In this document: piece after piece, positions 1 through 30,497 of the stretch
How positions within the stretch are numbered: the first letter of the stretch is position 1
Layout: every line of letters starts with the position of its first letter
DNA from: Propionibacteriaceae bacterium
Lineage (GTDB): Bacteria > Actinomycetota > Actinomycetes > Propionibacteriales > Propionibacteriaceae
Assembly (NCBI GenBank): GCA_031285845.1
Contig: JAITVK010000037.1
Location: forward strand, 1-58,555
DNA length: 58,555 nt
Direction: 5' to 3'
Made by a program: the position numbers and the translations under genes
Notes under the pieces: model-generated
Told to the model about the DNA's origin: nothing
What the model saw: only the letters and a program-made list of their open reading frames with translations
Database searches by the model: none

Positions 1-3000
1 GGGTCGTGTACGACGGTTGATGATGGGACGTGTTCGGTTCCGATTACTGACGACAAGGCGGAGTCGGTGACGGTGCATGCGACGTTGGGTGGTTTGGATG
101 TGTCGGGTTCGCCGAAGGACGTGAGCTTCACCCCAGGTGCGATTGGTTTTGGTCCGGGTGCGACGTCGTATGCGGTGGCTCCGACCGGTTCGTCGCCGGT
201 GTTGGCTGATGGTGTTCAGTCGTGGACTGGGACGGTGACGGCGAGGGATGCCAAGGGCAATGTGTTGTCTGGGTTGACGGCGTCGGACTTTGGGTTTGTG
301 GCGGATTCTGGTGTGACGGTGTCGGCGGTGAGTTCGGATGGCGCGGGTCACTATTCGGTGACGTTCACCTCGACGAGTGTGGGTTCTTTCCAGACCAGTG
401 CGTCGTACCAGGCCGGTGACAAGATCACTCCTGGTGATCTGCCGGTGGTGTTCTCTGCTGGTGAGGTGTGTGTGATTGAGGATGGGTGCACGCCGACTGA
501 TCCGGATCCGGCGCATCACACCGGTGTTGTGGTGTCGCGTGATGGGGCCGATGCTGATGGTGTCGCCACCGATGAGGTGACGGCGCGGGCGTTCGACGCT
601 CAGGGGCATCCGGTCGATGGTGTCGAGTTCACGTTGGCGACGACCGACGCCGGGTTGACCTTGGCCGCCGGAACCGTGAAGACCAAGGCTGACGGTGTCG
701 GCACGGTCACCGCGACGTCGCTGGTCGCTGGTGGTCATCAGGTCAAGGCGTCGATTGGCGCGAAGGAGCTGGTGAACTCGGGTTCGCCGATGACGCTCAG
801 CTTCCACGCGACGCAGGCCTCGGCGGCCACCTCGACTTTGACCGTGGACAAGTCGACGACCTCGGTCACCGACCCGATCACGGCCACCGTGGCCGGTCGT
901 GATGCGCAGGGCAATCTGCTGGGCGCGGGTGTGACGTTCGGATTCGCCGTGACCGGTTCGGCCGCTGTGGCCGCCTCATGCACGACGACTGAGTCTGGCA
1001 CATGCGCAGTGACCATCACCGACCACATGGCTGAGACGGTCACGGCACATGCGACGCTGAGTGGTGTCGACATCGTCGACTCGCCGACGGATCTGAGTTT
1101 CACTCCAGGCTCGATCAGCTTCGGTCCGGGCGCGACACAGTATTCAGTGGCGGCGACCGATCCGACGGCCAGCTCGGTTTTGGCTGATGGTGTTCAGTCG
1201 TGGACAGGCACGGTCACGGCGAAGGATGCCAAAGGCAACCTGTTGACGCAATTGTCGGCTGGGGACTTCGGGTTCTGGGCCGAGTCTGGTGTGAAGGTGT
1301 CGGCTGTGACTAGCGACCATGCCGGGCATTACTCTGTGGCGTACACCTCGAAGCTGGTCGGGGACCGTTTGACTCGGGTCTCCTACCATGGGGACGCGAT
1401 TCTTCCCGGAGACCTGCCGATCGTGTTCTCCGCCGGTGGTGTGTGTGTGATCGAGGACGGCTGCACGCCAGTCGATCCTGATCCGAGCCATCGTACGGGT
1501 GTGTTCGTCTCGGTCGATGGCGCCGATGCCGATGGTGTCGCCACCGATGAGGTGACGGTGAGGGCGTTCGACGCTCAAGGCCATCCGCTCGCGGGTGTCG
1601 AGTTCACGCTGTCGACGACCGACGCCACCTTGGCGCTGGCCGGGACGACCCTCAAGACCGGCGCCAACGGGCTGGCCACAATCACCGCGACCTCGACCGT
1701 GGCCGGAGGCCATCAGGTCACGGCTTCGGTGGGCGCGACCGAGCTGGTGAACACCGGTTCACCGTTGATGCTGACCTACAACTCAACTGCGGTGTCTGCG
1801 ACGGCTTCGACCTTGACGGTGGACAAAGACACCGCCAGCGTCGAGGACGTCATCACAGCCACGGTGACCGCGCGTGACGCCCAGGGCAATCAGTTGGGCG
1901 AAGGCATCACCTTCAACTTCACGACCAGTGGCAAGGCGGTCCAGGATCGTTCCTGCAAGACGGGCCCGGACGGGGTCTGCGCTGTGCGGATCACCGATGA
2001 CAAAGCGGAGACGGTCACGCTGATCGTACGCTTGGGTGACGCCGACATCAATGGTTCCCCCAAAGATCTGACCTTCGTCGCTGGCGAGCCTGGGCAGTGT
2101 GTCAAAGACCCGTCCGGCAGCGGACGTCCGGGCAGCCACTTGGTGGTCGATCCGACGGTTTTGACGATCGACCAAACTGCCGGAGTCTCGGTCTTCGTGA
2201 CTGATCGCAAGTGCAATCCGGTCGGACCGGGCCATGACGTCACAGTCAAGGTCGACGGCCAGGCTGGATTGACCGACAAGGATAAGAACGGCCAGGCGTT
2301 GGTCGTCACCACCGGCGAGGATTCGACGGCCAGGGCCACGTTGACGGACAGTCTGGCTGAGACGGTGTCGGTATCCGCTCTGATCGGCGCCGACCAGGTG
2401 ACCGATTCGCCGACGTCGGTGACCTTCACCGCCTGCGCGGTCGATGGACATCAATCCTCGTTGACGGTGGCGCCGGCCACTCAGCAAGCCGGATCAGACG
2501 TGCAAGTCACGATCAACGTCCGTGACCGCAAGGGCAACCCGGTGACCGGGCTGAATCAGTCGGACTTCCAGTTGACTGGAACCTCGGCTGATCGTCCGGA
2601 TCTGAGCTTCGGACGGTTCGCCGCCATCGGCGATGGGACGTACACCTTCTTGACGACCTCGGTGTTCGCCGGGCGTTTCGAGATCGGGGCGACCGTGACC
2701 GGGGTGAAACTGGACGCCAAGGCGTCGGTGGAATTCGTCGCTGGCGATGTCTGCGTGTCCAACTGCCATCCGCAGAACAATCCGGACACCCCCGTTGATG
2801 AGTCGAAGAACCTGACGCGGATCGTCATGGACGTCAATGACGCGTTGGCTGATGGTCATGAGTCTGACATCGCCAAGGCCTACGCCTATGACACTCATGG
2901 CAATCCGATCACCGGGGCGGTGTTCACCGCCGCTGATCTGAGCGGTGCTGACCTGTCGAGGAGCTTGAACCCTGCCAAACAGGATTCGGAGCCGACCGAT

Positions 3001-6000
3001 GCCCAGGGCGTGGCGACGCTGTCTTGGACCTCGATCAGGTCCGGGGTGTTCTCCGCGACCGCCATGGTCCGATCCGGTTCGATGCCGATCGGTGTCGAGG
3101 TGCCGGTCAGTCCGACCAACGGCATCAACGCGATTCGCTTCACCGTCGGAACGGTGTCGCCTGGACAGTCGCAACTGTTGGTGTCGCCGAAAGAAGCGCA
3201 AGAAGTCGCCTCGCTGTTCGACGCCACTGCTGTTGCTCGCGACCCGCAGGGCAACCCAGTGGCCGGTGTGGTCGTCAACTTCACTGTCGACGATCCGAAC
3301 TTCACTGACGACGGTCCGATCAGTCTGGACGCTCCATCGTGTACGACGGTCGACGACGGGACCTGCACAGTACGGATGACCAGCGAGGTGGCGGGCACTT
3401 TCGCCATCCATGCCACCACCATGGTGGGCAGGGTCGCCGCTGAGCTGGGTGGCGGTGGCGATCCGGCTCAAGCCAGTCCACAGTCGGTGACCTTCATCGC
3501 GGGCATGCCTTGTCGGTCGAGCGCTCGCAGCTGCGAGCCCGTCGACGACATTCGCACCCCGGACGAGGACGAGTCCAAGACTCACTTCTCGCGGGTCGAA
3601 GTGGTCCGTGACAACGCCCAGGCCGATGATGACGATGTCGATCAGATGATGATCTACGCCTACGACTTCTATGGCAACCCGGTACCGGGACTGAGCGTGG
3701 GCGCGTTCTCCCCGTTCGATCCGGCGCTGAACTTATATCCGCCGAAGCCGCGTGCGGCCAGGCCCGGTAGTGACCGGTCCTACGCTTTGCCGGTCACTGA
3801 TTCGCAAGGCAAGGCCGAGATGGACGGTTCGACCAAGGTCGCCGGGGAGTACGACGCCGTCATCGTCGTCAATGATCAGTCGTTGGCGGGATCGAACACG
3901 AAGCTGCATTTCTTGGCTGGTCCGCTGGCCAAGATCGAATTGGATATCGACCCGACCACGGCCCAGCCGGCGGGGAGTCGCTTCCGGATCACCGCCAACG
4001 CTCGAGACGATGAGGACAACCGAGTGCAGGGCGCGTCGGTGACCTTCAATCTACCCAAGGGACTGACGACAGTCCCGGCCTCGAGCCCGGCCAACTGTGT
4101 GACCCACGAGACTGGGCAGTGCTGGATCGATGTGACGTCGGTCACGGCCGGTGACTACACCGTGAGCGCTCAAGCCGCTTCCCGGGTGTCGAATCAGGTT
4201 CAAGCTAGATTCGTCGCCTCGGGCGCGGACGCCGCTCATAGTACGGCCGAAGTGGTTGTGAACGGCTCACCGTTCGATGGAGCCACTCCGGATGTGGTCG
4301 AGGTCACGGTGCGCGACATTCATGGCAATCCGATCCAGGGCGCGAAGGTGACTTCCACTGCGGTGGACGGTCAGGCCGACGGACTGGCTGTGATTCCCGT
4401 CATCGCCGCGACTGACACCCAAGGCAAGACCATCGTGTCGTACACCTCGACTCAGCCGGGTGCGAAGCGGGCTGACATTCTGATCGACGGTCGCGTGGTT
4501 CCGCAAGGCTCGCCTGTGGAGCTCCAGTTCGGCAATGGGCAAGGCGATCCGGCGCACTCCGATTGGGATATCGCTCCAACGAGGGCGCTGCCGGTCGGAA
4601 ACGATGACGCCTCCACCTTCACTGCCACGGCCACCGTTCGCGATGTCTTCAACCGGCCGGTCGAAGGCTCGGTGGTGAGTTTCCGCATCGACAAGTCGAC
4701 GACCTCGTGGGGCGCCAGCTCTCATAGCTGCACCACCGACACCGCCGGCGAATGCTCGGTCACGGTCACCTCGACCAAGGCCGGAACTTATCAAGCCTCG
4801 GCCTCGATCAGGCGCGGGGGCATCGGTCAAGCCAAGTCGATGATGTGGGAAGCGGCCGCAGTCAGCGCCGAGAAGTCGCGCGTGTGGGTGAGAGAAGACT
4901 TCGCCAAGGCTGATGGGGTGGCTCATAACCTGGTGGTCGTCGAAGCTCACGACAAGTACGGCAACCCTGTGTCAGGCCAGGTCGTGACGACGACCCCGGC
5001 GACCAACGGTTTGAGGACTCAGACCGGGGTCAAGCCGACCAACGCCGAGGGCATCACGACCGTGTGGTACGCCTCGCCGGTCGCGGGAAGCCATCGGGCC
5101 AGCGTGGCTGTGGGTTCCGGGCTGGTGAGTCCGACCGGATCCCCGCTGGACATGACCTTCGTCGCTGGTGAGCCTGATCTGACCAAGTCGTGGTTGGATG
5201 TCGACTTCAGTCGGGTCAGCGTCGGCCAGCCGGTGACCGCCACGGCCACCGTACGAGACTCCGCGGGCAACGCGGTGCCGAACGCGACGGTGAGTCTGAG
5301 TCTGCCAGCGGACAGTTCGGCGGGCTTCGCTGATCCGGTCCGCGGCGCCGACCATCATGTCATAACCTGTGACACCGCTGCCGCTGGATCGTGTTCACGC
5401 ACGTTCACCGACCTGACCGCCGAGTCAGTCGACGTACGGGCCACGGTGAAGGTGGCCGGTGAGTCGAAGGCCTTGCTCGGGTCGCCGTGGCCGGTGACGT
5501 TCGTCGCTGGCTGTGTGCCGCTGGTCGATCCGGGTTGTCCTGATCCGGGCCCCGACGTCGACAATGACCACCGCAGTCGCGTGCAGGTCAAGGTCGATCA
5601 TCAGCTAGCCGGCGGTCCGGTGGCGGATGTGGCTGAGGTGCTGATCTTCGACCAGTACGGCAACCCTGTCGATCGCAAGGTCACCTCGCGTTCGGACAAT
5701 CCACTGTTGAAGATCGGCAAGCTGACCTCGGTTGGTTCGGGCGCGACTCGGATCCCGTACACCACGGCGACGACGGCTGCGGCCGACCACACCGCTCGAG
5801 TGTTAGTCGACGGACGAGAGCTGAGATTCCTCCCGCAGCCGGGTTCGGCGCTGGACAATCCGGCCGGGATCGCGGCCAACTCCTCGCCGGTCAGTCTGCA
5901 CTTCGTTGGCGAGCTGGTTCTGGCTCCACCGACGATCACCTCGCCCGATGATGGCACGATCACTAACCACCGACCGTTGCCGATCGTCGGCGATGGCCGC

Positions 6001-7611
6001 CCAGGCGCGACCGTGGTCGTGGTGGATCAGTCGGATCGTGAGGTCTGCTACGCCCTAGTCAACCCTGACGGGCATTGGACGTGTGCGGCCGACTTGGCCG
6101 ACGGCGCTCATTCGTTGACCGCCACCCAGCACGATCCGTCGGGTGTGACCTCGGATCGGTGTGAGCCGGTTCGTGTGGTCATCGACACGGTGGGGCCGAA
6201 GGCTCCAGTGGTCGACGAGGCCAACGGTGAGCACGTGACTGGGCATGTTCCTGGTGATGTCAGTGATCATCCGCAGGTGGAGATCACCTGGCCCGACGGC
6301 TCGACCAGTCATGGTCGTGTCGGCGACGACGGCAGTTTCAGTGTGGTGACCCCACCCAACATGCCGTCTGGTCCAATCACGATCGTGGCCAAGGATCCGG
6401 CGGGCAACGTCTCGCCTGAGACCAAGGTCGATCTCGACACTGATCGTCCGGGCACTCCGGTGATTGATGTGGGCAATGGTGATGAGATCACGGGTCGGGT
6501 TCCTGGGCCGGTTGATGATGGCACGAAGGTGGTTGTGACCTATCCGAAGGATGATGGCAGTACGGGCACGATCACGGTTCCGGTGGGTCCGGATGGTCGT
6601 TGGAGTGTGTCGACTCCTGATGATGCGGTTGATGGTCCTTTGGATGTGGTGGCGACGGATCCGGCGGGCAATGTGTCCGATCCGGGCCATGGCCGCCTGG
6701 ACGTGACACCGCCGAAGACCCCGGTGATCGACGTCGGCAACGGTGATGAGATCACCGGTCGGGTTCCTGGCCCGAATGACGATGGCACCCAGGTCATCGT
6801 GACGTACCCGAAGGGCGACGGCAGCACAGGGACGATCACGGTTCCGGTGGGTCCGGATGGTCGTTGGAGTGTTCCGACTCCTGATGATGCGGTTGATGGT
6901 CCTCTGGATGTGGTGGCGACCGATCCGGCGGGCAATGTGTCCGAACCGGGTCATGGCGACCTGAACGTGTCGGGGCCGACCACGCCGATCGTCTATCCGC
7001 CCAACGGGTCTGAGATCGGTGGCGAGGCGGATCCGGGCGATCGGATCGTGATCCGTGACGGTGACTCCAAGCCGATTCCGGGCTGTGAGAACGTGGTGGC
7101 CGGACCGGATGGGCATTTCTCTTGCACGCCGACCACTCCGCTTCACCCCGGTGACACGATCACGGTGGTGGCGAAGGATCCGGCGGGCAATTCGTCCCAG
7201 CCGGTGACGGTCACGGTGGTGGCCTTGGACATGCAGGTGACTCATCCGCGTCGGTACCGTCTGCAGACTCAGGAAGTGACTGGGTTGAACTTCAACCCGT
7301 CGGAGAGTGTCTGTCTGACGGTGTCGCATTCGACGGTGTTGGACGGCGGTTGTCAGATCGCCGGTGTCGATGGGAAGGTGAAGTTCACCTTCACAGTGCC
7401 TCAGACCTTCGATGTCGGAACCCCGACGGCGAGCCTGACGGGGAAGAAGTCGGGCACGGTCGCGAAGACCTTCATCGTCGATGAGGATGTCAAGATCACT
7501 GCCCCCACCGGTGGGACGGTGTCGTCAGAACCACAACTCACGCTCACACAGCGATGGGCCCGACCGATGGTGGATCTGGCGGTGTGGGCCGTCAGAGCCA
7601 CCCAGGCTTAG
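1..7611 (+). CDS. Giant 1: multidomain Ig-like repeat surface protein, 5' end outside window
   Basis: The frame is open from base 1, so at least 2,536 C-terminal residues are visible and the true start lies upstream. The first two thirds is a chain of about 17 Big_1/invasin-like domains. These alternate between a type with a Cys pair in a hairpin (SCTTxxxGTC) and a type introduced by a Cys-containing linker (VCVIEDGCTP) and marked by ADGVATDEV. From about base 5930 come five Big_6-like domains with the signature ATDPAGN. A terminal domain (FNPSESVCLTV) follows, then the motif ITAPTGGT. The close paralogue at 17940-30497 has a hydrophobic helix and basic tail after the same motif. Here a hydrophilic tail of about 30 residues ends at TAG. 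Probable role: a long secreted stalk or adhesin. Function is inferred from architecture only. Loss of the anchor may mean the gene is decaying or the product is released. Confidence 0.85.
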   Translation, partial: GSCTTVDDGTCSVPITDDKAESVTVHATLGGLDVSGSPKDVSFTPGAIGFGPGATSYAVAPTGSSPVLADGVQSWTGTVTARDAKGNVLSGLTASDFGFVADSGVTVSAVSSDGAGHYSVTFTSTSVGSFQTSASYQAGDKITPGDLPVVFSAGEVCVIEDGCTPTDPDPAHHTGVVVSRDGADADGVATDEVTARAFDAQGHPVDGVEFTLATTDAGLTLAAGTVKTKADGVGTVTATSLVAGGHQVKASIGAKELVNSGSPMTLSFHATQASAATSTLTVDKSTTSVTDPITATVAGRDAQGNLLGAGVTFGFAVTGSAAVAASCTTTESGTCAVTITDHMAETVTAHATLSGVDIVDSPTDLSFTPGSISFGPGATQYSVAATDPTASSVLADGVQSWTGTVTAKDAKGNLLTQLSAGDFGFWAESGVKVSAVTSDHAGHYSVAYTSKLVGDRLTRVSYHGDAILPGDLPIVFSAGGVCVIEDGCTPVDPDPSHRTGVFVSVDGADADGVATDEVTVRAFDAQGHPLAGVEFTLSTTDATLALAGTTLKTGANGLATITATSTVAGGHQVTASVGATELVNTGSPLMLTYNSTAVSATASTLTVDKDTASVEDVITATVTARDAQGNQLGEGITFNFTTSGKAVQDRSCKTGPDGVCAVRITDDKAETVTLIVRLGDADINGSPKDLTFVAGEPGQCVKDPSGSGRPGSHLVVDPTVLTIDQTAGVSVFVTDRKCNPVGPGHDVTVKVDGQAGLTDKDKNGQALVVTTGEDSTARATLTDSLAETVSVSALIGADQVTDSPTSVTFTACAVDGHQSSLTVAPATQQAGSDVQVTINVRDRKGNPVTGLNQSDFQLTGTSADRPDLSFGRFAAIGDGTYTFLTTSVFAGRFEIGATVTGVKLDAKASVEFVAGDVCVSNCHPQNNPDTPVDESKNLTRIVMDVNDALADGHESDIAKAYAYDTHGNPITGAVFTAADLSGADLSRSLNPAKQDSEPTDAQGVATLSWTSIRSGVFSATAMVRSGSMPIGVEVPVSPTNGINAIRFTVGTVSPGQSQLLVSPKEAQEVASLFDATAVARDPQGNPVAGVVVNFTVDDPNFTDDGPISLDAPSCTTVDDGTCTVRMTSEVAGTFAIHATTMVGRVAAELGGGGDPAQASPQSVTFIAGMPCRSSARSCEPVDDIRTPDEDESKTHFSRVEVVRDNAQADDDDVDQMMIYAYDFYGNPVPGLSVGAFSPFDPALNLYPPKPRAARPGSDRSYALPVTDSQGKAEMDGSTKVAGEYDAVIVVNDQSLAGSNTKLHFLAGPLAKIELDIDPTTAQPAGSRFRITANARDDEDNRVQGASVTFNLPKGLTTVPASSPANCVTHETGQCWIDVTSVTAGDYTVSAQAASRVSNQVQARFVASGADAAHSTAEVVVNGSPFDGATPDVVEVTVRDIHGNPIQGAKVTSTAVDGQADGLAVIPVIAATDTQGKTIVSYTSTQPGAKRADILIDGRVVPQGSPVELQFGNGQGDPAHSDWDIAPTRALPVGNDDASTFTATATVRDVFNRPVEGSVVSFRIDKSTTSWGASSHSCTTDTAGECSVTVTSTKAGTYQASASIRRGGIGQAKSMMWEAAAVSAEKSRVWVREDFAKADGVAHNLVVVEAHDKYGNPVSGQVVTTTPATNGLRTQTGVKPTNAEGITTVWYASPVAGSHRASVAVGSGLVSPTGSPLDMTFVAGEPDLTKSWLDVDFSRVSVGQPVTATATVRDSAGNAVPNATVSLSLPADSSAGFADPVRGADHHVITCDTAAAGSCSRTFTDLTAESVDVRATVKVAGESKALLGSPWPVTFVAGCVPLVDPGCPDPGPDVDNDHRSRVQVKVDHQLAGGPVADVAEVLIFDQYGNPVDRKVTSRSDNPLLKIGKLTSVGSGATRIPYTTATTAAADHTARVLVDGRELRFLPQPGSALDNPAGIAANSSPVSLHFVGELVLAPPTITSPDDGTITNHRPLPIVGDGRPGATVVVVDQSDREVCYALVNPDGHWTCAADLADGAHSLTATQHDPSGVTSDRCEPVRVVIDTVGPKAPVVDEANGEHVTGHVPGDVSDHPQVEITWPDGSTSHGRVGDDGSFSVVTPPNMPSGPITIVAKDPAGNVSPETKVDLDTDRPGTPVIDVGNGDEITGRVPGPVDDGTKVVVTYPKDDGSTGTITVPVGPDGRWSVSTPDDAVDGPLDVVATDPAGNVSDPGHGRLDVTPPKTPVIDVGNGDEITGRVPGPNDDGTQVIVTYPKGDGSTGTITVPVGPDGRWSVPTPDDAVDGPLDVVATDPAGNVSEPGHGDLNVSGPTTPIVYPPNGSEIGGEADPGDRIVIRDGDSKPIPGCENVVAGPDGHFSCTPTTPLHPGDTITVVAKDPAGNSSQPVTVTVVALDMQVTHPRRYRLQTQEVTGLNFNPSESVCLTVSHSTVLDGGCQIAGVDGKVKFTFTVPQTFDVGTPTASLTGKKSGTVAKTFIVDEDVKITAPTGGTVSSEPQLTLTQRWARPMVDLAVWAVRATQA
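121..2067 (+). repeat. Three-domain module of about 972 bp, repeated inside giant 1
   Basis: Equivalent points (the codon before SFTPG or TFVAG) fall at 121, 1093 and 2068, giving periods of 972 and 975 bp. Each unit encodes three Ig-like domains in the same order: a VLADGVQSWTGTVTA domain, an ADGVATDEV domain and a STLTVDK domain. The sequence at bases 1-120 matches the end of a unit, so at least one further copy probably precedes the window. Copy 1 uses more T- and G-ending codons than copy 2. Confidence 0.8.
6450..6965 (+). repeat. Two near-identical Big_6-type units in giant 1
   Basis: Two consecutive units of about 264 bp (88 residues) share long identical stretches at the DNA level around 6580-6670 and 6840-6930, encoding PVGPDGRWSV and TPDDAVDGPLDVVATDPAGN in both. 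Identity at synonymous positions indicates recent duplication or gene conversion. Confidence 0.75.
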
Positions 7612-7863: not shown

Positions 7864-8451
7864 TTAGGCGTCGCCGCTCTGGTCGTCGGTCGCGCCCAGA
7901 GCGGCGATGACCGTTTCACAGGCCGGTCGGATCAGGTCGAAAACATCGCGATAGACCGCGTCGGTGCCGCCCCACGGATCGGGCAGGTCGAGGGCGGAGC
8001 CCATGACGCCCATGAGCGGGCGGGCCTGGTGGGCGGCCATGATCAGGTCGGCTAGGCGTTGCGCGCTGAAAGGTTCCCCGATCAGATGGCCGGTGTTCCA
8101 TTCCAGGGCGTGGGCGAATTCGAGCAGCGTGAAGGTTCGACTCATCGCGGCGGGGGCGGTTTCGACCACAGCGTTGCGATGGGTAGCTGTCGCCGTCAGG
8201 ATCAGATCGGCTTGGATGATGAGGTCGGCGCACAGTTGACGGGCGGCGAAGCCCGACACGTCCACTCCGTCGGCCCGCAGCAGCGCGGCCATCGGCTGGG
8301 CGATCGGGGCTGCGACGACGGCGTGGGTTCCGGCGCTGCTCACCGCCAGTTGATGTGGCAGGTCGTTGGCGAGGATCCGTTCGATCGCCGGTGAGCGGCA
8401 GATGTTGCCGGTGCAGACGGCTAGAAATCGAATCGATGATATGATCATCAT
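7864..8451 (-). CDS. Low-molecular-weight protein-tyrosine phosphatase (Wzb/Etp type)
   Basis: A cytoplasmic phosphatase of 195 residues. The P-loop CTGNICRS at residues 13-20 is the CX5R(S) catalytic signature, with nucleophile Cys13 and Arg19. The late LDLPDPWGG supplies the general-acid Asp of the DP loop. This family dephosphorylates bacterial tyrosine kinases (Wzb on Wzc, Wzb-like on CpsD). Here the kinase gene starts about 140 bases away on the opposite strand, which supports that pairing. No clear ribosome binding site precedes the ATG at 8451, so a second ATG three bases on, or leaderless translation, is possible. Confidence 0.9.
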   Translation of the reverse strand: MMIISSIRFLAVCTGNICRSPAIERILANDLPHQLAVSSAGTHAVVAAPIAQPMAALLRADGVDVSGFAARQLCADLIIQADLILTATATHRNAVVETAPAAMSRTFTLLEFAHALEWNTGHLIGEPFSAQRLADLIMAAHQARPLMGVMGSALDLPDPWGGTDAVYRDVFDLIRPACETVIAALGATDDQSGDA

Positions 8452-8544
8452 ATTAGTACACTATCAACGAGATATAGGCGATGTGTTTTCCATGACATCA
8501 CAACAACTCGGTCCGACTTCACGACAAGAGACCATACCAAACTC

Positions 8545-8553
8545 TGATACTAT
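8545..8553 (+). promoter_or_regulatory. Extended -10 promoter of the tyrosine kinase gene
   Basis: TGATACTAT matches an extended -10 element (TG, one base, TACTAT). No convincing -35 is seen, as expected for this class. It places the transcript start near 8560, ahead of the AGGGGAGGA ribosome binding site at 8579-8587 and the GTG at 8591. It therefore argues against translation from the ATG at 8552. Confidence 0.5.
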
Positions 8554-8590
8554 GAGCGCCAACTGGGGCGGTTTCAGTAGGGGAGGACCG

Positions 8591-20900: not shown

Positions 20901-23900
20901 GTCTTGGTGACTTACACCCTCGCACCCAGCGCGGCCGACTCGACGCTGACCTTGGACAAGCCGTCCACAACCGTCAACTCTCCGATCACGGCCACGGTCA
21001 CAGTGCGCGCTGCTGACGGTGTGACGTTGCTGCCCGGTCAGACGGTCACCTTCGACAACGCGTCCGATCCGACGACCACCTTGTCGGCCACCACATGTGT
21101 GACTTCAGACAAGGCGGACGCCAGTTTCGGCACCTGCTCGGTGACGATCACCTCGGCCAAGGCTGGGACCTACACCGATGAGCTCACCGCTTCGATCTCC
21201 ACTGGCGAGGTCGATGGTTCTCCTGCGACGGTGACGTACACCTTCGATCAGGGCTCGGTTGGCAACGGCGAATTGACGGTGACCCCGAAGGCCACTGGAT
21301 CGGCCACTCCGCTGACGGTGGGGACTGCCGACGCCAACAAATACACTGCGACGGCCAAAGTCACCGACGCCGCCGGCAACCTCGCTGGCGGCCAGACGGT
21401 CACTTTCGCTGTTGTCCACGCTGAAGACGACTCGGCCGTCGATTCCACCAAGACGACGCTGACCAGCGCCACCTGCGTCACCTCAGACAAGGCTGATGAC
21501 AGCTATGGCACCTGCTCGGTGGATCTGTCGAGCACCGATGACGGGTCTTACAAGGTGTCGGCCACAGTGGCCGATCCGAAGGATTCCACCGCCACAGTCG
21601 CGCTGACCAACTCTCCGGTCACCGTGTCGTACGTCGGCGGCTCGGCCACTGCGGACACGGTGAAACTCGCGGTCTCTCCGACCGCTTCGCCGATCAAGGA
21701 CGACGTGACGGCCACGGCGACTGCGACTGATCAGTACGGCAACGTGCCCGGCACAGCCACAAACGTCGGTTTCACCGTCGACGGCTCGGCGTACTTCATC
21801 GAAGGGGTCGACTCATCCGACAACGGCAAGGCGACCTGCACCATTCCGGCTGGCTCGTCGACCTGTGAGGTCACGTTGAGTGACGACGTGGCCGAGGGCG
21901 TCTCGGTGGCCGGTTTCCTCGGCTCCGACGAGGTGGTGGACTCGCCGATCACGGTGAACTTCGCCAACACGGCGTTCTCGTGCACCAATTCGACCTATAC
22001 CGTGGTCAAAGATCCGGCCAATCCGGATTCGACCAAGGTCGCCGCTGATGGGACGCAGGCATGGATTGGAACTTTGGAGGCGCGCGACGCCAGTGACGCC
22101 GCGATGACCAACCTGACGTTGGCGGACCTGGACTTCACCGCCGCCGCGCCAGTGGTCGTGTCTGATCCGCCGGTGAAGAACGCCGACGGGACCTATTCTG
22201 TGCGTTACACCAGCACGAAGACTGGAACCTACGGCACCAATGTCAGCTACCAGGGCGGCTGCGCTGTCAGCGCCAACCCTGATGGCTCGCCGAAGGATCT
22301 GCCGGTCACGTTCGTGGCTGGTCCGGCCTCCGGGGCGACGTCGACCATCGAAGCGACCTCACCGGTGACCGCTGGTGATCCGACAGGTTCGACGATCACC
22401 GTGACACTGTTCGACGCGCACGGCAACCAGCTGACCGAAGGTGGGGACACGGTCGCAATTCAGGCCGTCGTGCCGAACTCGAATCCGGCCCAGTCCTTCG
22501 GCACTGTGTCGGCGGTCACAGACAATGGCGATGGGACTTACACCGCCACGCTGACCTCGGCCGCGCCAGGCAACGCCACGGTTGGCTTCACCGTCAACGG
22601 CGCCGCAGCCACAGACACCGCTTCAGTGGTGTTCACTCAAGGCGGGGTCTCAGCCCAGTATTCGAGCCTGTGGGTGGTGAAGTCGGGTCAGCAGACCGCG
22701 ACTCAGACCGCCGGGTCGAATGTCGTGGTCGGGGTGACCGCTCACGATGTCAACGATCTGCCGATCACCACGCTGACCTCGGATCAGTTTGATCTGAGCG
22801 GGGTGGCCGATGGTGTTCCGGATCTGGAGTTCACCTACGCCGGCCCGGGAACCAACCCGGGGGAGTATCTGTTCAACACGACCTCGGAACTGAAGGGGAC
22901 GTTCACCTTGTCGGCGACCGTCGATTCGGTCGCGCTGACCCAGCATCCGTCGGTGGAGTTCACCTCAGGCGCGGTCTGTGTGGCCAACTGCACTCCGGTG
23001 GACAACCCGAAGACTCCTGAAGATGAGTCCAAGGAGAATAAGACTCATTTCTGGGTGAGCGCGGATGGCGCGATCGCCAACGGTCAAGCCACCGATGAGA
23101 TCTCAGCCTCGGCGTATGACACCTACGGCAACCCGGTGTCTGAGGCTGAAGTGGTCCTCACCGACCAGACGTCAGGAGCGCTGCAAGGCAAACTCAATCC
23201 GGCCACTGGTCGGGGAACCACCAATGACGACGGCCTGGCCAAGATCACGTTCACGTCGACAGCAGTGGGGACCTACACCGTCTCCGGCGAGGTCGACGAC
23301 CTGACCCCGGCCGATGGTTCGGGGGTTTTGAACCCGTCGTTCGTCTCCGACCAAGTGTCGGCCAAAGACTCGACGCTGACCGTGCTTCCGGCGACCAACG
23401 AAGTTGGAACATCGGCCACCGCCAAGGTGACGACGGTGGACCGTAACAAGAACAAGGTCGGTGGTGTCTTGGTCACTCTGACGGGAAGCTCACCCAACCT
23501 GACGATCGACGGCAAGCCCACCACAGCCAGCTGCACAACCTCCGACGTTGAAGACGATCCGGATTTCGGCACCTGCTCGGTTCCGGTCAGCTCGAAGATC
23601 GCCGACACCTATACGGTGACCGGAACGATCGGCTCTGAGACGGTCGGTTCGGGTGCTGTGTCAGTGACTTTCACCCCAGGAGACGTCTGTTTCACCGACT
23701 GCACGCCAGTCGATGATCCGACCACGCCGATTGATGAGTCGGAAGAGCACTTCACCGGTGTGAAAGTCACCAAGGACGGCGCGGCGGCCAATGGCGTCGA
23801 CGACGATCAGGCGACGGCTTACGCCTACGACGAGTACGGCAACCCAGTCGTCGATGTGATCGTGAACACCACGGCTGTGACGTCGACCTTGACTGCGCCG

Positions 23901-26900
23901 TCAGCGCCGGCCAAGACCAATGACGAAGGTGAGGTTGTGCTGAGCTACACCTCAACCGTGGCGGGGGAGGCCCAGGCCAGGGTCTTCATCGACTCGGTCG
24001 AGCCGAAGGATTCGGCCAAGGGTGACTCGCCGGTGACGATGCACTTCGGTACAGGCAAAGGTGATCCGACCCAGTCGGATCTGACTATCGCGCCGACCAC
24101 GCCCCAGCCGGTGGACTCCATCTTCCAGGTGACAGCGACTGTGCGCGACGCCACCCGTAACCTGGTCACTGGCGCTGTGGTGAGTTTCGATCTCGAACCA
24201 GGTTCGAAGATTGTCTTGACAGATCCCGTCACTGGCGCGGCAGCCACGACCTGCACCACGGGCGACTCGGGGACTTGCGTGTTGAACGCGACGTCCACGA
24301 TCGCTGGGTCCTACCAGATCGGAGCCACGATCCCGAACGCGTCGGGCATCCCGATCGGACTGAACGGCTCGCCGGTGAAGGCGCAGTTCACTGCCGGTGA
24401 TCTGTGTCTGGAATCCGAGGGTTGCGTGTCTGATCCTGGTGTGGCGAAGAGTTCAGTGTCGATGACGAAGAACGGCGCGCTCAACGATGGCCAGGATTCG
24501 AACACAGCCACGGTTGAGGCGTACGACAAGCATGGCAACCCGATCCAGGGCGCTGAGGTCACCTCGGCCCAGGTCGCTGGCGAGACCGGTTTGACGGTCG
24601 TCACTCCGATCAAAGCGACCGACGCTGACGGACGTACGACCATCTCGTACACCTCGTTGGTCGGGGGCGAACCGCTGAAAGCGGACGTGACTGTGACGAA
24701 GGACGATGTCACTGGCGCGCCCGAGGGCTCTCCTGTGACCATGCGGTTCTCGGCTGTCCCAGCCGATGCTGACCAATCCGAGTTCACGGTGATCCCGAAG
24801 ATCGCCGGCACGCCGACCCCGCTGACGGTGGGTGAGGCCGACCTCAACACTTACGAGGTCAAGGCGACGATCCGTGACGAGAACCGTACGCCAGTGGTTG
24901 GCGCGGTTGTGAGCTTCGACATCACACCCGACGGCACGACCTGGGTGAACGATGACGCTAGCTGCACCTCGGGCGCCGGTGGTGTGTGCTCGGCCTTCGT
25001 CACGTCGACCAAGGCTGGCACCTTCGCGGTGACTGCTTCGCTCGGCTCTGATTCGATTCAGCAGGCCAAACCGGCCGTGTGGGTGGCGGACGATGTCTGC
25101 GCTGTCGGCTGTGACCCAGTCGATCCCACGCTGCCGACGGAACTGCGCACTCGCGTCGAAGTGACCCACGACAACGAGGTGGCCGATGGTGTCGCGCGCG
25201 ACATCGCCACGGTCTACACCTTCGATCAGTACGGCAACCCGGTGTCTTCGGTGGTCGCGAAGGCGGCCGCCAAGGCGCCTGACACTGCTGAGACTCTTGG
25301 TGTCCAGCCGGGCATCGCAGGAACAGACGAGGATGGCGTGACCACGATCTGGTTCAGGTCGACCAAATCTGGCGCTCATCAGGCCGACATCACAGTCGAC
25401 ACCGATGACAAGATTCCGGCCGGTTCGCCAGTGACGCTCAACTTCAAGGCCGGTCCGGCCAACGCGAAGAACTCGACACTGGTCCTCGACGCGACGTCCG
25501 CTCCGGTGGGCGGGACGATCACGGGCACGGTGACGACCAAGGACGCCAAGGGCAACCTGGTCGGTGGCGCGCAGGTCACGCTGGGCACGGATGGTTCGGC
25601 CAGTGTGAATCCGTCCAGCTGCCGCACCAGTGAGGCTGATGACGCGACCTTCGGCACTTGCACGCTCAGTGTGACCGATGAGGTGGCCGAGACTGTGCCG
25701 GTGACGGCGATGATCGATGTGTTGGGCTCGCCGACCCCGATCACGGGTTCGGGCGAGGAAGTGACCTTCGTGGCTGACGCCGTGGTGGTCGATCCGTCCA
25801 AGTCGACGTTCGTGGTCGACCCGGTGACCGATCCGGCTGATCGCGACAAGGTCGGCTGGCCTGCCGGTGACGGGAGCGGGATCTACACCGCCACGGTGAC
25901 GCTGCGCGACGCCGACGAGGTCGCGGTGGATCCGCAGAACGTGGACGATCTCGTCTTCGACTCCTCTGAGACCGCCGTGGTGATCTCCAGCGTCGAGCGG
26001 GTCGATGTGGGGCAGTACAAGGTGACCTACACGTACGCCGGTGGGGACAACGCCACCGCGACTGCTGACGCGTCGTTCGCTGGCGCACAGATTGGGACGG
26101 ATCTGCCGATCCCGTTCCATGGCGTCCCGAGCAACGACTGCCCGACACCGGGCATGAAGTCTGGTCTGAGTGTCGACAAGGCCACCGCTGTGGTGCCTGG
26201 TCCGATCACGGCGACCGCTTTGATCACCGACAAGGACTGCCGGCCGGTTCCGAATGCCAAGGTGAGCTTCGCTTTGAGCACGCCGGGTTCGGCCACGCTT
26301 GATCCCGACACCGAGGTGGTCTACACCGACGGCGACGGTCGCGCGGTGGTCAAGGTTAGCGACACTGTTCCTGAGACGGTGACCTTGACGGCGTCGAACG
26401 ACGCCTTGGGCGAACTGTTGGGTTCACCCAAGGATCTGAAGTTCACTAACGAGATCTCCGACGTTCCGCCGGTCATCACTGAACCCACTGACGGCAGCGT
26501 GACCAATGACCTGCCTCTGACCGTGGCCGGAACTGGCCACGACGGGTCCACGGTGACGGTGACCGATGAGACTGGCAAGACACAGTGCACGGCACTGGTC
26601 GTCGATGGCCAGTGGTCGTGTGACGATGTCGAGTTGCGTGACGGTGAGCACACCTTGACCGCGACCCAGGAGGATCCGACCAACGGTCATGTCTCCGATC
26701 CGTCGGAGCCGGTCAATGTCACGATTGACACGGTCGCTCCGGACGCCCCAGTGATCGACACCGCCAACGATGAGACCATCGGTGGCACGGTTCCGGCTCC
26801 GGTGGATCCGGGCACGACCGTGACGGTGACGTACCCGACGGCTGACGGTGTGAAGACTGTCGAGGACGTTCCGGTGAATCAGGACGGCTCATGGTCGACA

Positions 26901-29900
26901 CCGACTCCGAGTGACGCAGTCGATGGTGAGGTCGCCGCTGTGGCGACCGATCCGGCCGGCAATGTCTCGCCTGAGGCGACTCATCCGTTGGATGTGACTC
27001 CTCCTGACGCTCCGGTGATCGACACCGCGAATCAGGATCAGGTCGCCGGCACGGTTCCTGGACCGGTCGATGAGGGCACCACAGTGGACGTCACGTGGCC
27101 TGACGGCACAGTGACCAAGGACGTCCCGGTGGACGACGAAGGCAGATTCCAGGTCGACACCCCCCAGGGCATGCCGTCTGGCGAGGTCTCGGCAGTGGCG
27201 ACTGATCCGGCGGGCAACCAGTCCGATCCGGGCACAGCCGCTCTGGACACGGTTGATCCGGGTAATCCGGTGATCGACACCGCCAACGATGACACCATCG
27301 GTGGCACGGTCCCGGCTCCGATCGATAAGGACACCACTATCACGGTGACGTACCCGACGGCCGACGGTGCGAAGACGATCGAGGATGTTCCGGTGGATCC
27401 GGACGGATCCTGGTCGACACCGACGCCGGACGACGCGATCGACGGTGACGTCTCCGCTGTGGCGACTGATCCGGCGGGCAATGAGTCCGAGCCTGGCGAA
27501 GGTGTGCTGGATGTGACTCCTCCTGAGGCTCCAGTGGTCGACAAGGCCAACGATGATGTCATCTCGGGCACGGTTCCTGGTGACATCGATCCGGGCACTG
27601 AGGTTGAGGTGACCTACCCGAAGGCTGACGGCAGCCAGGGTAGTGCGACGGTTCCGGTGGATCCGGATGGCTCGTGGACGATGCCGACACCGGATGACGC
27701 GGTCGACGGTTCGATTCAGGCTGTGGCCACGGATCCGGCGGGCAACGATTCTGAGCCTGGTGAAGGCGTCTTGGATCGTACGGCGCCGGGCAAGCCCGAC
27801 ATCACGCAGGCCAATGACGAAGTCATCGAAGGCACCGTGCCGACACCGGTCGAGGACGGCACGATGGTCGAGGTGACCTATCCGAAGGCTGACGGCAGCC
27901 AGGGTAGTGCGACGGTTCCGGTGGATCCGGATGGCTCGTGGACGATTCCGACACCGGATGACGCGGTCGACGGCCCGATTCAGGCTGTGGCCACGGATCC
28001 GGCGGGCAACGACTCCGAGCCGGACGACGGGCTGTTGGACCGTACCGGTCCTGCGACTCCGGTGGTTGACAACGGCAACGCCGATGAGGTGACCGGACAC
28101 GTTCCCGAGCCGGTCGAACCCGGCACGACGGTGGATGTGACCTGGCCTGACGGCTCGGTGACGGAAGACGTGCCGGTGGGCGAGGATGGCAACTTCACCG
28201 CCAAGACGCCTGATGGCATGGAGTCTGGCACGGTCGAGGTCGTGGCCACGGATCCGGCGGGCAACCCGTCGGGCGTGGGCCGAGGCGACCTGGACACCGA
28301 AGCTCCGGGCAAACCGCAGATCGACACTGCCAACGATGAGATCATTGAGGGCAGTGTGCCGATGCCGGTCGAGGACGGCACGATGGTCGAGGTGACTTAT
28401 CCGACTGCTGGCGGCGGTCAGGGCAGTGCGACGGTTCCGGTGGATCCGGATGGCTCCTGGTCCTTGCCGACACCGGATGACGCGGTCGACGGTCCGGTCG
28501 AGGCTGTGGCCACGGATCCGGCGGGCAACGAGTCCGAGCCTGGCGAAGGCGTGCTGGATCGTACGCCGCCTGAGACCCCAGTGATCGAGGAAGCCAATGG
28601 CGACCACGTCACCGGTCAGGTGCCTGGGGAAAACAATCCGGGCACGACGGTCGACATCACCTGGCCTGACGGTTCGGTGACCGAAGACGTCCCGGTGGAC
28701 GACGACGGCGCCTTCGAGGTCGACACGCCTGAAGGTATGCCGTCCGGTCCGATCGAGGTCGTGGCCACCGATCCTGCGGGCAACGACTCCGATCCTGGCC
28801 AGGGTCAGATCAACACTGACGCCAATGGCGCTCCGGTGATCGACACCGCCAATGGTGACAACGTCGCCGGTTCGGTTCCTGGTCCGGTTGAGGATGGAAC
28901 GACGGTCGACGTCACCTATCCGACTGCTGATGGGACGCGCACGGTGACCGATGTCCCGGTCGATCCTGAGGGCAACTGGTCGATCGAGACACCAGATGAC
29001 GCGGTCAACGGTACGGTCAAGGCCGTGGCGGTCGATCCGGCCGGAAACTCCTCACCCGAGGGCACTGCCCATCTGGATGTGGTGGATCCGGATAAGCCGG
29101 TGGTCGACGACGCCAACAAGGATCATGTCACCGGCCATGTGCCGGGCGACAATGACCCGGGCACGACGGTCGACATCACCTGGCCTGATGGCTCGGTGGC
29201 CGAGGATGTTCCGGTGGACGATGACGGCAACTTCGAAATCGACACCCCCGAGGGTATGGGCTCTGGCCCGATCACCGTGGTGGCGACTGATCCGGCGGGC
29301 AACCAGTCCGAGCCTGGCAAGGGCGATCTGGACACCACACCGCCGGCTGATCCGACGATCGACACCGCCAATAACGATGTCATCTCGGGCACGGTTCCTG
29401 GTGAGGTCGATCCTGGCACGACGGTCGAGGTGAAGGATGATGACGGGAACACCGTCTGCACGGCGACAGTCGGTGAAGACGGCAAGTGGAGTTGCTTGAC
29501 TCCCGATGGAGTCAAGGACGGTCCGATCACGGCCGTGGCGACTGATCCGGCGGGCAATCCGTCGAATCCGACGCCGGGCTACCTCGATGCGACCGCTCCG
29601 GACGCGCCAGTGATCGATCATGCCAATGACTCGGTCATCGACGGCCAGGCTGAACCGGGTTCGACGGTGACGGTGACGTACCCGAAGAACGACGGCAGCA
29701 CCGGCACGGTGGGTCCGATCACGGTCTCGCCTGAGGGTGATTGGTCGATCCCGACACCGGATGACGCGAAGGACGGTGGACAGATCTCCGCCGTGGCCAC
29801 TGATGAGGCCGGCAACGTCTCCGAGCCGGACACGGCGATCCTGGATCGTACGCCTCCGACGAAGCCTGACGCCTCGTCGCCGAACGGAACTGAGGTGATC

Positions 29901-30497
29901 GGCAAGGGTGATCCGGGTGACACGGCCACAGTGACTGATCCGGATGGCAAGCCGCTGCCGGGCTGTGAGGCCACGGTCATCGGCGTCGACGGGACCTGGT
30001 CCTGCACCCCGACCGACCCGCTGCAACCGGGCGACAAGGTCACCGTCGTGGTGACTGATCCGGCTGGCAATCAGTCGGAGCCGACGGTGGTGACTGTGGG
30101 ATCGCTGCAGATCGAGGTGGCGTATCCGACGAGGAATCCGGGTCAGACCGAGGTCGTGACTGGTTCCAACTTCAACCCGGGCGAGCGGGTCTGCCTGGTG
30201 GTTCATTCCACCGGAGTGGATCTGGGATGCCAGACAGCGGACAAGGATGGCAAGGTGACATTCTCGTTCACTGTCGGTTCAGAGTTGGCAGTGGGCACGC
30301 ACACGGTCACGCTGACAGGGGAGAAGTCGGGTTCGGTCTCGGCGGTCTTCTCCGTCACCACGGCGATTTCAGTCGCCACCGGTGGTACTATGGATTATGA
30401 CAGCAGTTTCCCATATGCTCTGCTGGTGGGTGGCTCTGTCATGGTCTTCACCGGCCTGTGGCTGACTTCGAAGAAGGTCGCCCGCGGGCGTCGGTGA
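17940..30497 (+). CDS. Giant 2: anchored Ig-like repeat surface protein, about 4,185 residues
   Basis: Complete. A signal peptide with a long charged n-region is predicted to be cut after residue 70 (ADQAQA). Residues 75-540 are an unrecognised N-terminal domain. An SdrD B-like domain with the Ca-binding loop NDTNGDGAIED follows at about 542-610. A GEVED-like domain ends in TNGEIEDYSI near 875. About 16 Big_1-like domains span 998-2840 and 14 Big_6-like domains span 2842-4030. A terminal domain (FNPGERVCLVV) follows, then SVATGGT, a hydrophobic helix (YALLVGGSVMVFTGLWL) and basic tail KKVARGRR. ATG 17940 is preferred to TTG 17931, which is too close to the ribosome binding site. The likely role is a long wall- or membrane-anchored adhesin. 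It is a paralogue of the gene at 1-7611. No binding partner can be read from sequence. Confidence 0.9.
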   Translation: MRTHRRAVIHDALFKPGQDSSRQSSSVTASQTRTHGRHSLRSATALMAGFVLTIGGVFLGQGFQADQAQAAPGAGELANQGWDPHWTEVPGVEARWLQPLSQESVYWTSDRSVGNPGPTVGNTNTMLGESYDFSDDVMSYKTRPVLQFERTATGIDPFIDPTGLQFSTQAMAPIGGTASGNDTLSMYFWAHDGTDHVAPSILDCGVATGRPANEWISVVRVTDDSPTIEVGCMPAPGGPVDFTNVTPGANIPFATGGEANQINGLVYIQADYGYLDSVPADLPAGGPNQNWVQFAVWDPQSGEFSLSGPVQPADTLGAMNQISGERKRLQAVTNGTTCVTGLENACTYGGAGMANPDAGPQTTADFGLDAQGSMYMIVASPFAAGENNNGTAALVRIRPARDEDGNIVDGTSANPWRYNVVKKLKKADPSVTYPNSGIYTPGTGIHDGIFLGGGYTSITSDDYPLNEGVAPGSTASINWTASRMVRVNPLSGSMEPIGPTSIEDNATTTDTLNPAGYVMSQLTGRGITYRDNASPQMLTVIEGHVYNDTNGDGAIEDPKGVAGVRVAIYSGDGTLLGSQATAQDGSYSLVVSGDGTYHVRVVQPQIDGVNAVQTWGSTINPEYPNAVLNSTQIHCVNGEIGPGQSQECHNALPVPFVDPALGEEEQTYDPSTWPTYATVTMTSNEEVGYADFGISTMGSYGDADVDPTEVADGAPAHVANNEATVWLGSELGRYAGPATDDSHASDDGLHLSTSNGDIPLKGSTLSATKVYQLSGTVSGDETASAAASAQAWTTTPGDSSPNFNSDPVWTSGVVDGVATGDFQVAKSGSYRTASQTWVRAQVSGQAITLPTNADGEYQAPASMTETSERYWATNGEIEDYSIKAIDSVVRPMVNTTAGSGQFKVNTTTLTADNTKVTLYPEIGGAAGIKQSLLFYNPDTTKWSVSKTDVTDTATGQEIDASKYVVTPATDGKSTTVEVTPAVGDDISVLVTYTLAPSAADSTLTLDKPSTTVNSPITATVTVRAADGVTLLPGQTVTFDNASDPTTTLSATTCVTSDKADASFGTCSVTITSAKAGTYTDELTASISTGEVDGSPATVTYTFDQGSVGNGELTVTPKATGSATPLTVGTADANKYTATAKVTDAAGNLAGGQTVTFAVVHAEDDSAVDSTKTTLTSATCVTSDKADDSYGTCSVDLSSTDDGSYKVSATVADPKDSTATVALTNSPVTVSYVGGSATADTVKLAVSPTASPIKDDVTATATATDQYGNVPGTATNVGFTVDGSAYFIEGVDSSDNGKATCTIPAGSSTCEVTLSDDVAEGVSVAGFLGSDEVVDSPITVNFANTAFSCTNSTYTVVKDPANPDSTKVAADGTQAWIGTLEARDASDAAMTNLTLADLDFTAAAPVVVSDPPVKNADGTYSVRYTSTKTGTYGTNVSYQGGCAVSANPDGSPKDLPVTFVAGPASGATSTIEATSPVTAGDPTGSTITVTLFDAHGNQLTEGGDTVAIQAVVPNSNPAQSFGTVSAVTDNGDGTYTATLTSAAPGNATVGFTVNGAAATDTASVVFTQGGVSAQYSSLWVVKSGQQTATQTAGSNVVVGVTAHDVNDLPITTLTSDQFDLSGVADGVPDLEFTYAGPGTNPGEYLFNTTSELKGTFTLSATVDSVALTQHPSVEFTSGAVCVANCTPVDNPKTPEDESKENKTHFWVSADGAIANGQATDEISASAYDTYGNPVSEAEVVLTDQTSGALQGKLNPATGRGTTNDDGLAKITFTSTAVGTYTVSGEVDDLTPADGSGVLNPSFVSDQVSAKDSTLTVLPATNEVGTSATAKVTTVDRNKNKVGGVLVTLTGSSPNLTIDGKPTTASCTTSDVEDDPDFGTCSVPVSSKIADTYTVTGTIGSETVGSGAVSVTFTPGDVCFTDCTPVDDPTTPIDESEEHFTGVKVTKDGAAANGVDDDQATAYAYDEYGNPVVDVIVNTTAVTSTLTAPSAPAKTNDEGEVVLSYTSTVAGEAQARVFIDSVEPKDSAKGDSPVTMHFGTGKGDPTQSDLTIAPTTPQPVDSIFQVTATVRDATRNLVTGAVVSFDLEPGSKIVLTDPVTGAAATTCTTGDSGTCVLNATSTIAGSYQIGATIPNASGIPIGLNGSPVKAQFTAGDLCLESEGCVSDPGVAKSSVSMTKNGALNDGQDSNTATVEAYDKHGNPIQGAEVTSAQVAGETGLTVVTPIKATDADGRTTISYTSLVGGEPLKADVTVTKDDVTGAPEGSPVTMRFSAVPADADQSEFTVIPKIAGTPTPLTVGEADLNTYEVKATIRDENRTPVVGAVVSFDITPDGTTWVNDDASCTSGAGGVCSAFVTSTKAGTFAVTASLGSDSIQQAKPAVWVADDVCAVGCDPVDPTLPTELRTRVEVTHDNEVADGVARDIATVYTFDQYGNPVSSVVAKAAAKAPDTAETLGVQPGIAGTDEDGVTTIWFRSTKSGAHQADITVDTDDKIPAGSPVTLNFKAGPANAKNSTLVLDATSAPVGGTITGTVTTKDAKGNLVGGAQVTLGTDGSASVNPSSCRTSEADDATFGTCTLSVTDEVAETVPVTAMIDVLGSPTPITGSGEEVTFVADAVVVDPSKSTFVVDPVTDPADRDKVGWPAGDGSGIYTATVTLRDADEVAVDPQNVDDLVFDSSETAVVISSVERVDVGQYKVTYTYAGGDNATATADASFAGAQIGTDLPIPFHGVPSNDCPTPGMKSGLSVDKATAVVPGPITATALITDKDCRPVPNAKVSFALSTPGSATLDPDTEVVYTDGDGRAVVKVSDTVPETVTLTASNDALGELLGSPKDLKFTNEISDVPPVITEPTDGSVTNDLPLTVAGTGHDGSTVTVTDETGKTQCTALVVDGQWSCDDVELRDGEHTLTATQEDPTNGHVSDPSEPVNVTIDTVAPDAPVIDTANDETIGGTVPAPVDPGTTVTVTYPTADGVKTVEDVPVNQDGSWSTPTPSDAVDGEVAAVATDPAGNVSPEATHPLDVTPPDAPVIDTANQDQVAGTVPGPVDEGTTVDVTWPDGTVTKDVPVDDEGRFQVDTPQGMPSGEVSAVATDPAGNQSDPGTAALDTVDPGNPVIDTANDDTIGGTVPAPIDKDTTITVTYPTADGAKTIEDVPVDPDGSWSTPTPDDAIDGDVSAVATDPAGNESEPGEGVLDVTPPEAPVVDKANDDVISGTVPGDIDPGTEVEVTYPKADGSQGSATVPVDPDGSWTMPTPDDAVDGSIQAVATDPAGNDSEPGEGVLDRTAPGKPDITQANDEVIEGTVPTPVEDGTMVEVTYPKADGSQGSATVPVDPDGSWTIPTPDDAVDGPIQAVATDPAGNDSEPDDGLLDRTGPATPVVDNGNADEVTGHVPEPVEPGTTVDVTWPDGSVTEDVPVGEDGNFTAKTPDGMESGTVEVVATDPAGNPSGVGRGDLDTEAPGKPQIDTANDEIIEGSVPMPVEDGTMVEVTYPTAGGGQGSATVPVDPDGSWSLPTPDDAVDGPVEAVATDPAGNESEPGEGVLDRTPPETPVIEEANGDHVTGQVPGENNPGTTVDITWPDGSVTEDVPVDDDGAFEVDTPEGMPSGPIEVVATDPAGNDSDPGQGQINTDANGAPVIDTANGDNVAGSVPGPVEDGTTVDVTYPTADGTRTVTDVPVDPEGNWSIETPDDAVNGTVKAVAVDPAGNSSPEGTAHLDVVDPDKPVVDDANKDHVTGHVPGDNDPGTTVDITWPDGSVAEDVPVDDDGNFEIDTPEGMGSGPITVVATDPAGNQSEPGKGDLDTTPPADPTIDTANNDVISGTVPGEVDPGTTVEVKDDDGNTVCTATVGEDGKWSCLTPDGVKDGPITAVATDPAGNPSNPTPGYLDATAPDAPVIDHANDSVIDGQAEPGSTVTVTYPKNDGSTGTVGPITVSPEGDWSIPTPDDAKDGGQISAVATDEAGNVSEPDTAILDRTPPTKPDASSPNGTEVIGKGDPGDTATVTDPDGKPLPGCEATVIGVDGTWSCTPTDPLQPGDKVTVVVTDPAGNQSEPTVVTVGSLQIEVAYPTRNPGQTEVVTGSNFNPGERVCLVVHSTGVDLGCQTADKDGKVTFSFTVGSELAVGTHTVTLTGEKSGSVSAVFSVTTAISVATGGTMDYDSSFPYALLVGGSVMVFTGLWLTSKKVARGRR
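26740..29860 (+). repeat. Tandem Big_6-type units in giant 2
   Basis: Thirteen consecutive units of 84-88 residues (about 252-264 bp) begin with PVIDTAN-like sequence and end with ATDPAGN. Two classes alternate irregularly: TYPKADGSxG and TWPDGSVTED. Units starting near 27520 and 27784 are almost identical in DNA over about 140 bases (27604-27760 against 27868-28020), showing recent duplication. This is coding repetition, not a CRISPR array. Confidence 0.85.

Follow-up and report, generated by a model that had tools for sequence, protein, structure and literature searches.

What does it mean that two giant genes of the same kind stand on one strand, on either side of a run of household genes? 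The question is raised by contig C23 of a Propionibacteriaceae genome (assembly of 2.68 Mb in 37 contigs), whose entire length of 58,555 bases forms the window analyzed here. Both giants are Ig-repeat genes of the forward strand, and the household block between them measures 10.3 kb. Giant 1 is represented by an open frame for its C-terminal 2,536 residues (1..7611), its 5′ end being open because the window starts where the contig starts. Giant 2 (17931..30497) has 4,188 residues if read from TTG; a start at the ATG in position 17940 would give 4,185. An earlier note on this DNA described the two as paralogues with the same domain order around a block of about 10 kb, and this description holds. 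The Pfam order in both is Big_1, followed by Big_6/Big_13 arrays, a domain with the motif FNPxExVCL and a TGG; the collinear Big_1-like blocks (residues 806-1828 of giant 1 and 1565-2607 of giant 2) are 35% identical, and the last 300 residues 51%.

The explanation that we favor, and consider quite probable, is that the giants belong to a dispersed, lineage-wide family of fibrillar-adhesin-like proteins, that the block keeps the ancestral gene order, into which giant 2 came later, and that giant 1 is probably a released or decaying member. A typical protein of the family would consist of an export signal, a head of about 460 residues, an SdrD_B-like piece, a rod of Big_1 and then Big_6 domains, the FNPxExVCL domain, and a tail made of TGG, a helix and basic residues. 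Members occupy separate chromosomal sites beside household operons, giant 2 having been inserted between pafC and dagK of the ancestral block. The head may bind a surface far from the cell, the Ig rod would span the distance, and the tail would fix the whole to the membrane or cell wall.

In regard to the parts of the two proteins, giant 1 has by Pfam 17 stretches of Big_1 and 5 of Big_6, and giant 2 has 14 of each. The ordered Big_1-like block of giant 1 (residues 796-1830; 2386..5490) is collinear with giant 2 and with giants on contigs C17, C32 and C4 of the same genome. It is followed by a Big_6/Ca-tandemer array (approximately residues 1984-2407; 5950..7221) and by the C-terminal domain with FNPxExVCL and TGG (7222..7611, TGG at 7507-7515), after which no hydrophobic helix follows. 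In giant 2, the head (residues 75-540; 18153..19550) is followed by the SdrD_B domain found by Pfam (19569..19754), and further on by the Big_1-like block collinear with giant 1 (22623..25751), a Big_6/Big_13 array (26496..30098), and the FNPxExVCL domain with TGG (30378-30386), membrane helix and basic end (30099..30497). Tandem repeats detected by TRF were short Big_6 arrays only, with a 264-base unit at 1.9 copies with 87% matches and 4.5 copies with 68% matches. The roughly 1 kb of DNA 3′ of giant 2 (30498-31549) shows one weak frame (31074-31559) without a family match.

When the own genome was searched with giant 1, 69 stretches matched, spread over eight contigs. Twelve paralogous frames were read in these loci, ranging from 574 residues to the 4,188 of giant 2; apart from giant 1 and giant 2, they have 3,970, 3,507, 3,188, 2,522, 2,076, 1,888, 1,758, 1,432, 1,037 and 574 residues. 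If two pairs of frames at contig edges are halves of the same genes, the genome would hold about ten giant genes. One of these pairs involves giant 1 itself. The frame C9a on contig C9 (2,522 residues) leaves its contig on the C-terminal side, giant 1 is without its N-terminal side, and from residue 1 to about 690 the best window matches of giant 1 lie on C9, at 54-76% identity. At the DNA level, C9a and giant 1 share 312 bases at 87%, and among the best five matches listed for each pair of different own-genome giants this is the only pair above 86% over more than 80 bases. No exact overlap of at least 10 bases was found between the ends of C9 and C23, and synteny offers no link, as the DNA upstream of C9a shares no neighborhood with the related loci read. 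Giant 1 and the C9 frame are probably one gene that the assembly broke within repeats, and the frames of 1,037 and 574 residues are probably another gene broken likewise.

The head of giant 2 had been called unrecognised in the earlier note. That residues 75-540 form a domain of their own is borne out, while the label itself proved wrong: judged by its alignments, this is a conserved separate family domain of the lineage. The type carried by giant 2, type A, is common to the C34 and C17 giants and is met more distantly in the C32 giant. A profile of four heads found matches to part or whole of it in 20 of 147 genomes of the family, drawn evenly from a larger group, and in 3 of 29 genera. Heads covering most of the profile, 22 in total, were read in 8 of 19 genomes of the genus and in one of another genus, and their full alignment has 42 invariant columns. 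A wider query, residues 46-1000 of giant 2, was matched in 16 of the 19 genus genomes, the own one counted, many of these matches beginning past the head. In the head tree, giant 2 groups with the C34 and C17 giants and three heads of genome G011 (support 91/95), where it branches outside the other five and is not the sister of C34. The sole above-chance Pfam recognition is SdrD_B at the end of the head, in 7 of the 22. Profile searches of the head against the PDB returned non-significant matches only, at E 0.92 and at E 0.41, the latter to a rice protein that we take to be a strictosidine-synthase-like propeller, and AlphaFold2 run from a two-row alignment gave no usable fold (mean pLDDT 28.8). 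Short repeated motifs within the head hint at a propeller, which is a guess from sequence. The head can reasonably be regarded as a putative binding region.

Neither giant is the nearest relative of the other. When compared in windows of 120 residues, the head and tail of giant 2 are mostly nearest to the C34 giant and its middle to other paralogues, while giant 1, after its C9-like start, is nearest to the C17 and C32 giants. The median identity of giant 1 per window is 38% with giant 2, 45% with C17 and 42% with C32, against 33-34% with two giants of another genus, so a comparison of the kind proposed in the earlier note does place the pair above the level of unrelated Big_1/Big_6 proteins. 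The trees are in line with the windows. Giant 2 and C34 group in the tail tree with support of 93/96 (12 rows) and 84/89 (9 rows), and in the tree of the Big_1 block (9 rows) giant 1 stands with C17, C32 and their relatives at 98/99, with giant 2 on the other side. The AU test rejects a pairing of giant 1 with giant 2 in the 9-row trees of the Big_1 block (p 0.030) and the tail (p 0.021), these being moderate values from repeats whose alignment is uncertain; in the Big_1 tree, moreover, the branch of giant 2 is long. Pairs of neighboring giants in relatives served as a control, in a comparison of twelve proteins with C4 left out. The side-by-side pair of G001 match each other best in 35 of 49 and in 36 of 36 windows, the neighboring pair of G121 in 53 of 68 and in 75 of 101, whereas giant 1 and giant 2 do so in just 3 of 41 and 5 of 69. 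The control pairs lie on contig C3 of G001 (locus L084) and contig C54 of G121 (L076 and L077), with frames of up to 7,577 residues on the latter. The best reading of these sequence relationships is that the family multiplied and split into its main lines before the compared species separated.

The block between the giants has the gene content that the earlier note had listed, with two additions at its start: a gene for a low-molecular-weight (LMW) phosphotyrosine phosphatase (7864..8451, reverse strand), seen in 5 of 20 related loci fetched, and a gene for a Wzz/ParA-type ATPase protein (8366..9985). These are followed on the forward strand by a parA-type ATPase gene (10068..10907), scpA (11185..12048), scpB (12048..12779), an rluB-type pseudouridine synthase with an S4 domain (12776..13522) and an FKBP-type isomerase (13668..14768), then on the reverse strand by gluQ with its Glu/Gln-tRNA-synthetase (tRNA-synt_1c) domain (14773..15735), and again on the forward strand by pafB with a WYL domain (15827..16789) and pafC with HTH_PafC, WYL and WCX domains (16606..17727). 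Past giant 2 comes dagK (31549..32511, forward strand). ScpB was matched in 39 of 40 genomes, the own one counted, and the block was fetched from 20 relatives. There, the genes from parA to pafC, then dagK and a DSHCT helicase gene, form a run free of giants. Among the related loci, pafC and dagK are both visible in 13, none of which has a giant between them, and the open frames of all 20 loci gave no giant match at E 1e-6. In 11 of these 13 loci the aligned ends of pafC and dagK are 55-531 bases apart; the gap is wider in G019, at about 1.4 kb, and in G005, at 3.6 kb, while in the own genome 13.8 kb separate the end of pafC from dagK. Five of the remaining seven loci end at contig ends and one at the fetched limit, and the last, G001, is separate, as dagK is absent from the 4.7 kb fetched after its pafC. 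On the other flank, no giant was found in the 1.9 to about 5.4 kb beyond the phosphatase gene in the five loci that have it.

Since the space between pafC and dagK is free of giants in relatives, the block would be ancestral, and giant 2 either a newcomer or a gene lost in the others. The best reading of the gene order is that giant 2 entered later, between pafC and dagK; loss of a giant from this site in the other species is formally possible. The relatives compared are distant ones, their scpB being at most 69% identical to the own one. As a side observation, pyrG and the two next genes, presumably nudix- and xerD-like, precede parA in some relatives (L015 at 15836-19999; L028, L031, L035, L040, L042 and L043). 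In the own genome the same pyrG group follows the C32 giant on a different contig, which indicates an old break of gene order before parA.

Sites of other giants can be matched across species. For the C32 giant, G015 and G011 each hold a positional orthologue, preceded by the same ABC transporter genes; on the 3′ side, pyrG and the two next genes follow in G015, and those two genes only in G011. The tails of the C32 giant and these orthologues are 67-72% identical, compared with the 51% between giant 1 and giant 2. The C34 giant is preceded by folP and folB-folK, an arrangement that recurs with the giants of G013 and G018; the giant of G016 follows folB-folK, at which point its contig starts.

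This second site bears on the alternative that survives best, in which recombination carries whole giant genes or domain cassettes from one site to another, so that heads or genes are swapped. At the folBK site the neighbors are common and the head types differ, type A in C34 and type B in G013, G016 and G018, the three type B heads grouping at 86/88. By its tail, the C34 giant goes with giant 2 and not with G016 and G018 (the G013 giant, on its contig C248, is cut before the tail), and the pieces of giant 2 have differing nearest paralogues along its length. On the other hand, the likeness of the folBK sites is confined to the upstream side, as the giant is followed by a lysS-like gene in the own genome and by a galK-like one in G016 and G018 (names that are partly our assumption), and loss followed by fresh insertion would give the same picture. 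Either heads or whole genes were exchanged at the folBK site, or the site was used twice. Also against exchange, among the best five DNA matches per pair only C9a and giant 1, probably one gene, reach the level given above. As the substrate for recombination that the earlier note had suggested, the two giants are weak: the DNA matches listed between them, five at E 1e-10, have 73-77% identity over 138-289 bases. We regard exchange as a possible but doubtful account of these giants.

It is distinctly improbable that the giants were brought in by mobile elements with a preference for tRNA genes or other particular integration sites. Such an origin could account for the C9a frame starting about 330 bases after the tRNA-Val of a Gly-Cys-Val-Val cluster, for the C36 frame starting about 230 bases after a tRNA-Asn, and, in relatives, for a tRNA-Ala on the other strand about 400 bases before the giant of L067 and a tRNA-Leu about 1.1 kb before that of L089. 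Against it, a third case in the own genome proved to be a stretch within a gene that had been miscalled as a tRNA, the majority of the scanned giant loci are free of tRNAs, many of them being cut by contig ends, the tRNA-Asn is not repeated elsewhere in its locus, and the repeat of the C9 tRNA is the neighboring tRNA-Val. With two own-genome cases, one false call and two weak cases in relatives, tRNA-linked integration was dropped. Searches of plasmids and viral contigs found no relative of the head (in the viral set, 77 pattern stretches, none related), and a phage or plasmid origin was rejected for want of a match.

The explanation first offered for this locus, that one giant gene underwent a local duplication and the household block came later to lie between the copies by insertion, would fit the common strand, the 10.3 kb distance and the equal domain order, but is very improbable, as the block is giant-free in 13 of 13 related loci with pafC and dagK both visible, where the comparison that the earlier note had called for points to an independent presence of giant 2 at its site, and as each giant has nearer paralogues elsewhere.

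What appeared as a local duplication is therefore better read as part of a dispersed family of giant Ig-rod proteins in Propionibacteriaceae, whose positional orthologues and possibly exchanged heads can be traced across species. By anatomy, the giants are fibrillar-adhesin-like in the sense of PMC9210967, which describes such proteins of Firmicutes and Actinobacteria as large, with an N-terminal annotation gap, stalk repeats and a C-terminal anchor. They share with these the size, an N-terminal annotation gap that may be the adhesive region, the repeated stalk domains and a predicted C-terminal anchor, and differ in a head without a Pfam model except SdrD_B at its end, in an xxTGG signal outside the anchor motifs that were searched in that work, and, for giant 1, in the lack of an anchor helix. 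The closest described parallel is the set Giant1-5 of Apilactobacillus kunkeei (PMC12863079), where each genome likewise encodes several surface proteins that are thousands of residues long, with positional homologues and a presumed N-terminal binding domain; there, the genes are five and consecutive and beta-solenoids are predicted in Giant1-4, while here the genes are dispersed, the rods are Ig-like and the head is different. Periscope proteins (PMC9704523) similarly use a rod of repeat domains to hold a tip away from the cell, but their class is defined by high repeat identity and changes in repeat number, and the repeats found here are short Big_6 arrays with 68-87% matches.

The tails of the two giants differ. 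Giant 2 ends in SVATGG, a hydrophobic helix (KD 1.61) and a basic end, and is predicted to be surface-anchored. Giant 1 keeps the TGG and has no membrane helix (7480-7611): its best 19-residue hydropathy within the last 60 residues is 0.55, while the remaining nine tails that are complete in this genome reach 1.61-2.31, and it was not counted as anchored. Read from its tail, giant 1 is probably released or decaying. A giant of G002 (L088) also stops early, five codons past TGG. LPXTG-type anchor models had no match, and the SVATGG of giant 2 departs from the motif L[PA]xTG. The LAXTG substrates of class E sortases (PMC5148588) resemble the giants in having xTG followed by a helix and a basic end; the giants differ in the second G, in having no constant L and A before the x, and in an own class-E homologue without the cysteine.

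That homologue lies on contig C12 (165540-166331; L097:1038-1832, reverse strand) and has orthologues, several of which replace the histidine too. Class-E sortases carry TLxTC at the catalytic-cysteine motif, where the own protein reads TLVTA. In a tree of 44 rows, 17 Cys-less rows of the genus, one per genome and from 17 of 19 genomes, form a single clade at 98/99, and one row of another genus lacks the cysteine separately. Cys-bearing class-E rows were read in 7 of the 19 genomes, and in at least five of these a Cys-less copy accompanies them. The exosortase family PF09721 was matched in 0 of 19.

Tail type and sortase type co-occur in the limited set of loci read. Where only the Cys-less class-E homologue was read, 20 of 20 tails are TGG (nine from the own genome G000, giant 2 included, three each from G001 and G011, two from G015, and one each from G006, G016 and G018), while the four tails from genomes with a Cys-bearing homologue (G004, G007, G012 and G017) are all TG[SA]. 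These counts apply to tails retained by a filter on helix and composition and to the sortase matches read, which are part of all matches; two non-surface rows, the LPFTGG tail of G014, whose contig has further sortase matches, and a TGG tail of G121, from another genus, were set apart. The association makes the attachment of the giants to the cell a testable question. One answer would be that the TGG giants left the class-E route, their signal changing to xxTGG, the Cys-bearing enzyme disappearing, the Cys-less one being kept and a divergent His/Cys sortase-like protein of the type found on contig C25 attaching or processing the giants; we offer this tentatively and think it rather unlikely. 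In a limited search of open-licence literature we found no report of giants in Propionibacteriaceae, of a TGG motif paired with a sortase, or of a Cys-less sortase.

Further candidate enzymes were found as well. A class-F-like protein with His and Cys is encoded on own contig C13 and has matches in G015, G011 and G012, a sortase-like frame with STC lies on C16 of G001, and divergent sortase-like proteins occur in the own genome (C25; L168:1333-2028), G002 and G006 (L166:1066-1866 and L167:1075-1863). The existence of these three kinds of candidate keeps a sortase route available. The view that six genomes hold only a Cys-less sortase was weakened by the divergent His/Cys protein of G002, G006 and G000 and by the STC frame of G001. 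The divergent proteins have no Pfam or NCBIfam sortase match; they share an N-terminal helix and THS and ITC motifs that contain His and Cys, and in G006 and G002 their gene adjoins an ilvD-like sequence.
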